The position numbers and the translations under genes are program-made. 42,160 bases of DNA, taken from Comamonadaceae bacterium CD01. GTDB lineage: Bacteria; Pseudomonadota; Gammaproteobacteria; Burkholderiales; Burkholderiaceae_C. Every line of letters begins with the position of its first letter. Position 1 is the stretch's first letter. A model generated the notes under the pieces. It saw only the letters and a program-made list of their open reading frames with translations, ran no database searches and was not told the DNA's origin. The stretch is from contig PGEI01000018.1 of assembly GCA_002894305.1 (NCBI GenBank), positions 1 to 42,160 on the forward strand, in the 5' to 3' direction. Shown piece after piece: positions 4,643 to 11,300 of this stretch.

Positions 4643-5647
4643 ATGTCCAAGCCCAAGCCCGCCCCATTGCCCGCCGACACGACGATCGGCGGCTACCGCG
4701 TGGTGCGCCGCCTGGCTGCCGGCGGTTTCGGCGTGGTCTACCTGGCAGTCGATCCGGAAGGCCAGCAGGTCGCGATCAAGGAATATCTTCCCGCATCGCT
4801 GGCCACGCGCGAGCCCGGTGAACTCTTGCCCAAGGTGGCGCCCGAGAAGCTGTCGCTGTACCGCCTGGGACTCAAGAGTTTTTTCGAGGAAGGTCGATCG
4901 CTGGCTCAAATTTCGCACGCCTCGGTGGTGAGCGTGCTCAATTTCTTTCGCGAGAACGACACCGTCTACATGGTGATGAACTACCTGGAGGGCGCGTCGC
5001 TGCAGGAATACATCATCACCGCGCGCGATCTGAAGACGCTCAAGGTGTTTCGCGAGTCGACCATCCGCTCGCTGTTCGACGAGGTGCTGCGGGGCCTTCG
5101 CATCGTGCACCAGCACAAGATGCTGCACCTGGACATCAAGCCGGCCAACATTTTCATCACCGACGACAACAAGGCGGTGATGATCGATTTTGGCGCCGCG
5201 CGCGAGGTGCTGTCCAAGGAGAGCAACTTCATCCGCCCGATGTACACCCCCGGCTTTGCCGCGCCCGAGATGTACCGGCGCGACACGCAGATGGGCCCCT
5301 GGACCGACATCTACGCCATTGGCGCGTGCATCTACGCCTGCATGAGCGGCTACCCGCCCAGCGAGGCGCCGCAGCGCCAGGACAAGGACAGGCTGGCCGC
5401 GGCGCTGGGCAAGCTGCGCGGCGTGTACTCCGACAGCCTGATCCAGATCGTCGAATGGTGCATGGCGCTCGATCCGATGGCACGCCCACAATCGGTGTTC
5501 GCACTGCAAAAAGAGCTCTCGCGCGAAGGCGAGCGGCGCTACACCCGGCTGTCGGTGGCAGAGCGCATGCGCATGCAGATCGACAGCCTGGTCTCGCCCG
5601 ACAAGCCCGCCGACAAGAACGACCAGGCACAGGGGCGCGCGCGGTGA
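4643..5647 (+). CDS. Hanks-type serine/threonine protein kinase
   Basis: A single kinase domain covers most of the 334 residues. The glycine loop reads RLAAGGFGVVYLA, the ATP lysine lies in VAIKEYLP, the catalytic loop is HLDIKPANIF, the magnesium site is DFGAAR, and GFAAPEMY is the APE motif. The residue before the catalytic Asp is Leu, not Arg, making this a non-RD kinase, a class that usually does not need activation-loop phosphorylation. No transmembrane segment or sensor domain is visible, so it should be cytosolic. The ATG at 4643 fits the short leader MSKPKPAPLPADTTIGGY. Its stop overlaps the start of the PP2C phosphatase gene (GTGA), so kinase and phosphatase are translationally coupled. 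Confidence 0.9.
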   Translation: MSKPKPAPLPADTTIGGYRVVRRLAAGGFGVVYLAVDPEGQQVAIKEYLPASLATREPGELLPKVAPEKLSLYRLGLKSFFEEGRSLAQISHASVVSVLNFFRENDTVYMVMNYLEGASLQEYIITARDLKTLKVFRESTIRSLFDEVLRGLRIVHQHKMLHLDIKPANIFITDDNKAVMIDFGAAREVLSKESNFIRPMYTPGFAAPEMYRRDTQMGPWTDIYAIGACIYACMSGYPPSEAPQRQDKDRLAAALGKLRGVYSDSLIQIVEWCMALDPMARPQSVFALQKELSREGERRYTRLSVAERMRMQIDSLVSPDKPADKNDQAQGRAR

Positions 5648-10922: not shown

Positions 10923-10955
10923 AAAAAAGCCGCTGGCGACGAGGGATCGCCAGCG
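10923..10955 (-). terminator. Rho-independent terminator of tRNA-Ile
   Basis: A 9-bp perfect stem (CGCTGGCGA with TCGCCAGCG) with a 7-nt loop is followed on the minus strand by GC and six T. It lies 15 bases past the encoded CCA end of tRNA-Ile. Confidence 0.88.
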
Positions 10956-10969
10956 ACTGTCTGCAATCG

Positions 10970-11300
10970 TGGTAGGCCGTGCTGGGCTCGAACCAGCGAC
11001 CAAAGGATTATGCGTGCCACTTCGGCTTTCGCCGCCCGTTTCCGGTTCGTGGCCTGGACTCTGTCTTGCCTTTCGGCCTTCCCGTCGAGTCTCTACACGT
11101 TCCCCCTGCCGGGGGCTTCGCTCGGCGTTGGCATAGCGTTTGCACGCCTTAGCGTTCACCGAATTTGAGAAGTTCTACTTCAAGGCAGAGTGAACTTACC
11201 TTGAGCAACCCATGCAGTCCATTCCATGCCGCGGCCATCGGCCACGGGTTAGGGATGCACCCGCCAAGTCCTCTGCTCTAACCAACTGAGCTAACGGCCC
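10970..11300 (-). tRNA. ileX: tRNA-Ile(CAU) gene interrupted by a group I intron
   Basis: Two exons, 11300-11267 (34 nt) and 11012-10970 (43 nt), join into a complete 77-nt tRNA with encoded CCA. The acceptor stem pairs GGGCCGU with ACGGCCU, with a G1-U72 wobble. The D-arm reads AGCTCAGTTGGTTAGAGC and the T-arm GCTGG-TTCGAGC-CCAGC. Joining after U33 restores a 5-bp anticodon stem (GAGGA/UCCUU) and the loop CUCAUAA. The anticodon is CAU, and the body strongly resembles the isoleucine tRNA (E. coli ileX type) in which C34 becomes lysidine and reads AUA; it is not a methionine tRNA. Unspliced, the gene would be missed by simple tRNA scanning. An AATAAT hexamer 10 nt upstream of the 5' end could be part of its promoter. 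Confidence 0.92.
11013..11266 (-). ncRNA. Self-splicing group I intron (Azoarcus tRNA-Ile type) in the anticodon loop
   Basis: This 254-nt insertion has the group I core. P7 pairs GACUC (11091-11087) with GAGUC (11061-11057), where the known Azoarcus tRNA-Ile intron has GACUA/UAGUC. The blocks TCAAATTCGG and GTGTAGAGACT match Azoarcus as I remember it. An internal guide AUGGGUU (11213-11207) pairs with the joined exons GACU|CAU through P1, with a U-G wobble at the splice site, and through P10. P2 follows at once (CAAGG 11203-11199 with CCUUG 11185-11181). The intron ends in the required G. GNRA loops cap P5 (GCAA) and the P8 and P9 hairpins (GAAA). There is no homing endonuclease gene. A 53-nt extension of the P1 loop precedes the guide. 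Confidence 0.92.

Follow-up and report, generated by a model that had tools for sequence, protein, structure and literature searches.

Structure of the Split tRNA-Ile(CAU) Gene

The window, i.e., the whole stretch of 42,160 nucleotides from Comamonadaceae bacterium CD01 that was analysed, carries on its minus strand a tRNA-Ile(CAU) gene split by an intron. The 5′ exon (G1 to U33, 34 nt) lies at 11267..11300, the intron (254 nt, with a final G) at 11013..11266, and the 3′ exon (C34 to CCA, 43 nt) at 10970..11012. Both exons were delimited by ARAGORN in intron mode and by the joined tRNA, the 5′ exon also by uninterrupted homologues, and the intron is supported by Rfam, ARAGORN, covariation and the joined tRNA. 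When the exons were joined after U33, a complete 77-nt cloverleaf with the anticodon CAU was obtained. ARAGORN without introns called no tRNA at the split locus; in intron mode, it called a CAU tRNA with a 254-nt intron from tRNA position 35, that is, after U33. Furthermore, seven of the eight other genomes of the same genus that were searched contain an uninterrupted full-length gene, the junction of which reads ...GGACTCATAATCC..., and therefore the insertion is exactly between U33 and C34 and the borders are exact. These results were in agreement with an earlier note on this DNA, which had proposed tRNA halves 254 nt apart, a normal tRNA after joining and an entry point at U33/C34. In the eighth genome of the genus (G001), tRNA-Ile(CAU) carries another intron, at U36/A37.

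A terminator scan placed a terminator-like site directly downstream of the tRNA (10928..10958, minus strand). The sigma-70 scan found no promoters near the tRNA (shuffles gave a mean of 0.2), and a −10-like AATAAT is visible by eye there despite this null result.

Catalytic Core and Covariation

The catalytic core occupies 11078..11172 on the minus strand and comprises P3 (5′ strand), P4, P5, P6, P7 (5′ strand) and P3 (3′ strand), as given by Rfam, a 15-row alignment and our own core model R1. Structure and a survey of P7 placed P7 (GACUC/GAGUC) at 11057..11091, where it encloses the 3′ strand of P3 and a 3-bp P8 with a GAAA loop. On the same strand, the P2 hairpin UCAAGG...CCUUGA (11180..11204) showed double changes at five of its six pairs, and P9 with two GAAA-capped arms, P9.1 and P9.2 (11017..11052), was assigned from structure and alignment. 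No pair of the structure is broken in the window's intron. The P2 hairpin stands directly behind the guide and the intron ends in G before C34, both as the earlier note had described. This terminal G was present in 34 of 34 rows of alignment A1, though the extraction rule required it. The claim of GNRA loops held in part: P8, P9.1 and P9.2 have GAAA, but in the window the loop of P2 departs from GNRA.

Alignment A1 contained 34 rows of U33/C34 introns (L114 was left out for length), and its 54-pair structure was formed in 98.6% of 1836 cells. Double changes occurred at 16 pairs in 75 cells, versus shuffled means of 6.6 and 15.1, and slid versions of the structure reached at most 5 pairs and 22 cells. 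Further pair types were in line with the shuffles (32 vs. 29.8, reached by 59 of 500). P2, P5 and P6 contained 11 of the 16 double-changed pairs. P7, P8 and P9 were invariant and P3 varied at a single pair, in part since the letters of P7 and the 3′ strand of P3 are prescribed by the retrieval pattern; P8 was likewise partly fixed in this 34-row set. The second alignment had 15 rows, made up of Ile, Leu and Arg introns together with L127 and the viral-contig core L132. P3 is formed in every one of these rows, four of its six pairs showing double changes, and 36 double-change cells were counted over the whole alignment versus 9.1 in shuffles.

The P7 of the Azoarcus tRNA-Ile intron has the letters GACUA/UAGUC, and CUA/UAG was read in P7 of 11 of the 14 parsed U36-type introns. 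Of the 126 introns collected, 121 were parsed; the last three P7 pairs were complementary in 120 of them, and the last pair appeared with all four letters, as C-G in the window, A-U in the same 11 of 14 U36 introns, U-A and G-C. This covariation across the 121 parsed introns upheld the suggestion that GACUC/GAGUC is a compensatory change relative to Azoarcus.

The Rfam model Intron_gpI matched the core with 28.4 bits (E 7e-5, 1.5 kb searched). The covariance-model check proposed with the note therefore came out mixed, as the core was matched but the score was below the gathering score of 50. Searched over the whole CD01 genome, the same model recovered the tRNA-Leu intron alone (18.8 bits) and missed the split tRNA-Ile, and in a joint search of 10 loci it matched 4 of 10 at E ≤ 1 (20.7–33.8 bits), the window's locus being absent. 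Intron_gpI is a weak detector for these introns. R1 gave 105.6 bits at the window's intron, which also belongs to the 15 rows used to train it. The free fold of the precursor was discarded as evidence; it was stable (z −2.91, a value that none of 100 shuffles reached) but lacked group I topology. The conserved core of P3, P4, P6 and P7 with the P3/P7 pseudoknot, the covariation and the Rfam core match identify the element as a group I intron, as had been claimed. Its candidate subgroup is presumably IC3.

Internal Guide and Splice-Site Pairing

The internal guide AUGGGUU lies at 11207..11213 on the minus strand, as assigned from structure and alignment. GGUU pairs with exon GACU to form P1, the two preceding bases pair with U1 and G2 of the intron, and AUG is able to pair with CAU of the second exon (P10). 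The U33·G pair at the cut, with which the 5′ exon is held on the guide, was found in 34 of 34 A1 rows (column pair 8-95); in rows L119 and L123, where the guide is shifted by one base in the alignment, GGG is likewise present. Intron base 1 pairs in A1 with the guide-side G just before GGUU, and base 2 covaries with the next guide-side base (GC 12, GU 11, AU 8 and others 3). P1 itself is weak, two of its four pairs being wobbles.

The earlier note had described the guide as pairing with both exon GACU and CAU. The former pairing is conserved; the latter fits in the window but is not conserved. The base facing A35 is C, a mismatch in the middle pair, in 14 of 35 distinct introns (the site of row L080 in this count was assigned by eye), and P10 showed no covariation in the alignment. 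P10 was therefore rejected as a conserved helix. Judged by the alignment, the conserved guide is P1 with its 2-bp extension.

Receptor-like Loop in the P1 Extension

The extension of the P1 loop (11214..11266, minus strand) folds into a hairpin of its own with a 4 × 3 internal loop, CC[UAAC]..[CAU]GG, which was recognised by folding and from the receptor consensus in passages of PMC10004510. In the 39 introns of the U33 kind (L254 left out), the stretch before the guide was 38–167 nt long, with a median of 46 nt. The whole domain before P3 had a median of 88 nt in the U33 lineage versus 42 nt in U36 introns, and of about 40 nt in the Leu, Arg and Thr introns, about half of the U33 value.

The 4 × 3 loop appeared in the minimum-energy fold of 27 of the 38 distinct P1 extensions folded alone. 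Shuffled extensions gave 0.54 such loops on average and at most three in 50 sets (longest left out). The loop lies between CC and GG in 26 of the 27, with UAAA in 20 and with CAU or CAC opposite in 20, and the window has UAAC opposite CAU. The 11-nt GAAA receptor is given as UAUGG:CCUAAG in passages of PMC10004510. Like this tetraloop receptor, the P1 extension has a 4 × 3 internal loop flanked by CC/GG; unlike it, the U33 introns most often have CCUAAA with CAUGG or CACGG. The resemblance of the two is clear. The loop may dock onto L8, L9.1 or L9.2, all of which are GAAA here. A conserved receptor-like P1 extension would be a new and testable candidate way to position a short splice-site helix.

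Distribution of Related Introns

A 19-letter P7/P3 pattern scanned over named genomes gave 37 loci. At 34 of these, in Burkholderiales and some gammaproteobacteria, a complete tRNA-Ile(CAU) is interrupted by an intron at U33/C34. With 34 complete relatives in named genomes, recurrence at the same site is far beyond chance. Loci L112 and L113 have the 3′ splice site only, the 5′ half being absent from the stretch examined. L113 (Pseudoxanthomonas sp. CF125, about 5330–5480) contains the 3′ part of a U33-type intron and the 3′ exon, with no 5′ half found nearby, and no integrase was among the five ORFs tested beside this remnant. The remaining locus, L127 (Chthonomonas sp., of another phylum, Armatimonadota), has a related core with the same P7 letters, in a tRNA read by ARAGORN as Arg(UCG). 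Together with the window, G044, G046 and two loci from a viral collection, the 34 loci gave 39 extractions. Of these introns 35 are distinct, L103 and L122 duplicating those of G044 and G046. At the viral-collection locus L131, three ORFs tested had no family matches.

The hosts in Burkholderiales include Paracidovorax, Pseudacidovorax, Polaromonas, Rhodoferax, Ideonella, Lautropia, Ottowia, Burkholderia and Chitinasiproducens, and those outside this order are Halotalea, Dokdonella, Perlucidibaca and Pseudoxanthomonas (the remnant). Identity to the window's intron was 92% in Halotalea, 91% in Burkholderia sp. E7m39, 90% in Paracidovorax citrulli and 81% in a Rhodoferax. Because a single clade of the three gammaproteobacterial rows was not rejected (p 0.294), horizontal transfer of the U33 intron into gammaproteobacteria is only suggested by these identities.

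R1 matched 89 of 399 genomes drawn from the window's family and 64 of 369 drawn from its class; the reading covered most of the better matches, leaving aside about 15 weak ones in the family and many in the class. ARAGORN called an intron-bearing tRNA at 100 of the 139 loci read. Its isotype labels are unreliable where the site is off, and U33 introns were recognised by their 3′ splice site. In the window's family, the U33/C34 intron occurs in at least 10 genomes and the U36/A37 intron in at least 13. The exact 3′ splice-site pattern was present in 9 of 399 genomes drawn from the order (8 genera, 8 families) and, among the 369 class genomes, in the window's genome only; this pattern misses variants, e.g., those in G432 and G471, and the new matches count as pattern matches only. 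The reversed control pattern had no matches in the order or class samples.

Relationship to Known tRNA Introns

The core tree was built from the core and 3′ domain of 100 of the 126 introns, 26 called tRNA-Leu(UAA) being left out. Thirty-five U33 introns formed a clade (100/100), the nearest neighbours of which were two introns of a tRNA read as Thr(UGU), and 15 U36 introns formed another clade (100/100), apart from the first. Four U33 introns with P7 GACUG/CAGUC stood apart on long branches, and a U33 clade of all 39 was not rejected (p 0.487). L254 (G471) is a short-P1 intron at the same U33/C34 site, and a U33 clade including it was not rejected either (p 0.352); it may perhaps represent a separate arrival at U33/C34. 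Separate intron lineages at the two sites of tRNA-Ile(CAU) are favoured by the tree.

The window's intron resembles that of tRNA-Ile(CAU) in Azoarcus sp. BH72 in its gene and in being the same kind of small ribozyme. According to passages of PMC6274277, the Azoarcus intron is spliced after the anticodon CAU, with CAU as the 5′ tag, i.e., at U36/A37. In contrast, the window's site at U33/C34 is three nt earlier, and the insertion is not directly after the anticodon with CAU guide-paired as the 5′ exon. The window also differs in its long P1 extension, 3-bp P8 and different P9, the contrast being taken from U36-type relatives. The lineage of the intron is most likely distinct from that of the Azoarcus intron in site and architecture. 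Alternatively, the intron could be of the Azoarcus type, with splice sites slid by three nt and no separate lineage. This would fit the shared gene, and a single clade of U33 and U36 introns was not rejected (AU p 0.196), but the 35 U33 and 15 U36 introns form separate 100/100 clades, the nearest neighbours of the U33 clade are the two Thr(UGU)-read introns, and both the 5′ domain (medians of 88 and 42 nt) and the 3′ end differ. Such a slide is therefore unlikely compared with a distinct U33 lineage.

The introns of tRNA-Leu, tRNA-Arg(CCU) and tRNA-Thr(UGU) in the same bacterial families have the same core and a similar 3′ end, ...GGCGGCGAAAGCCGAAGUGGNANG, and differ in gene, site and their shorter 5′ domain (about 40 nt). 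Group I introns in tRNA-Ile2 of Acidovorax and Burkholderia have already been published with tRNAscan-SE 2.0 (PMC8450103). They are in the same gene, and passages of that source give no insertion position, structure or lineage. Three Paracidovorax species carry the U33/C34 type, and the published introns are probably the same. No published description of the U33/C34 site or of the receptor-like P1 extension was found in a search that left most subscription literature outside. Bacterial tRNA-Ile group I introns as such are known, and what would be new is the U33/C34 site with a distinct, patchily spread lineage.

Copy Number and Decoding of AUA

No second tRNA-Ile(CAU) was found in the CD01 genome with the 77-nt tRNA query and a tRNA model. 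The query matched the two halves and otherwise gave weaker matches. Six of the latter were read: five are tRNAs for Lys, Phe, Met, His and Thr, and the sixth received no call. The tRNA model marked 36 places, 32 above the cut-off. No tRNA-Ile(CAU) or (UAU) was among the 30 of these 32 that were read, and neither of the remaining two was matched by the tRNA-Ile query. Two CAU tRNAs among the 30 resemble, by eye, elongator and initiator tRNA-Met. Genes for tRNA-Asp, Asn, Glu, Cys, Tyr and Ile(GAU) are missing from the same 30. The intron-split gene is likely to be the only copy, in an assembly (212 contigs, listed as 99.96% complete and 4.97% contaminated) that lacks several other necessary tRNAs. 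Another intact gene, which the earlier note had named as part of a refuting condition, was thus not found, but the assembly itself is tRNA-incomplete.

These properties of the assembly, i.e., its 212 contigs, 4.97% contamination and missing tRNAs, also speak for another intact tRNA-Ile(CAU) lost from the assembly or for a contig foreign to the bin. However, the 5′ exon of the window is identical to those of G002 and G004 of the same genus, and in each of the seven same-genus genomes with an uninterrupted gene only one full-length match of ≥90% was listed. Either case is improbable, and the split gene as the likely sole copy is preferred.

TilS is present in the CD01 genome (156.5 bits), and tilS has been called essential in Burkholderia cenocepacia in the abstract of PMC10128029. 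Splicing would be needed to read AUA and hence be essential, as expected from group I chemistry. This argument rests on established knowledge because AUA does not occur among the roughly 2,160 codons of six nearby genes, the five of them that were run against Pfam having clear families. The rarity of AUA, together with the unconserved P10, would also suit an intron that no longer splices, with a dead tRNA gene and AUA avoided or read otherwise. Against this, all structure pairs are intact in the window, the halves make a full cloverleaf, TilS is kept and no substitute tRNA was among those read, so that a dead gene is hardly credible.

Proposed Splicing Pathway and Spread

Taken together, the element is very probably a self-splicing, P1-guided group I intron at U33/C34 of tRNA-Ile(CAU) that restores the anticodon loop and most likely belongs to a distinct lineage. 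It is a patchily distributed and probably functional ribozyme, familiar in kind but unusual in its position. Following group I chemistry, the precursor would fold so that exon GACU pairs with guide GGUU, with U33·G at the cut and an extension by intron U1 and N2. An external guanosine bound in P7 would attack after U33, and the freed U33 would then attack after the terminal G, so that U33 is joined to C34 in a normal anticodon loop. The ligated junction would read ...GGACU/CAUAAUCC..., and TilS would modify C34 after splicing. The intron interrupts the anticodon loop immediately before the wobble base, which TilS has to modify, and introns of different architecture have entered the same tRNA gene at two sites close together. 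A tRNA finder without intron mode misses the gene, and therefore such genomes appear to be without AUA decoding.

A broader proposal is that in a separate U33/C34 lineage of beta- and gammaproteobacteria the weak P1 depends neither on a long guide nor on P10; it would be held by an extended P1, in which a variant 11-nt receptor docks one of the intron's own GAAA loops. This lineage would spread without an endonuclease gene, the tRNA halves being replaced when integrative elements recombine at the anticodon loop. This combination is tentative, and we give it a rather low probability.

Several further loci were observed. The CD01 genome has a second group I intron at L001 1476–1797 (contig C146), in tRNA-Leu(CAA), with a guide UUUGAG matching CUC/AAA. 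Upstream of it, from L001 1250, lies a truncated intronless 5′ copy of tRNA-Leu, as if the intron-bearing copy had replaced the intronless one. In G215 (contig C2, 178–217.5 kb; L282 and L283), a stretch of about 32 kb has a complete tRNA-Ile containing a U36 intron at one end and a 3′ tRNA half with a different U36 intron at the other. Inside it are two Phage_integrase genes as well as a further complete tRNA-Ile, this one containing a U33 intron. Such introns may be located in the attachment sites of integrative elements and be carried by them. In G004 (contig C7, about 90.6 kb; L090), a 3′ tRNA-Ile(CAU) half that starts at GACTCAT and the intact gene are separated by 7.4 kb, and an integrase is encoded at a distance of about 0.9 kb. 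In the window's genus, too, elements may integrate at the anticodon loop. In addition, a strong match to Rfam SECIS_3 (85.5 bits) was observed at L100 1042–1100 in Chitinasiproducens palmae.
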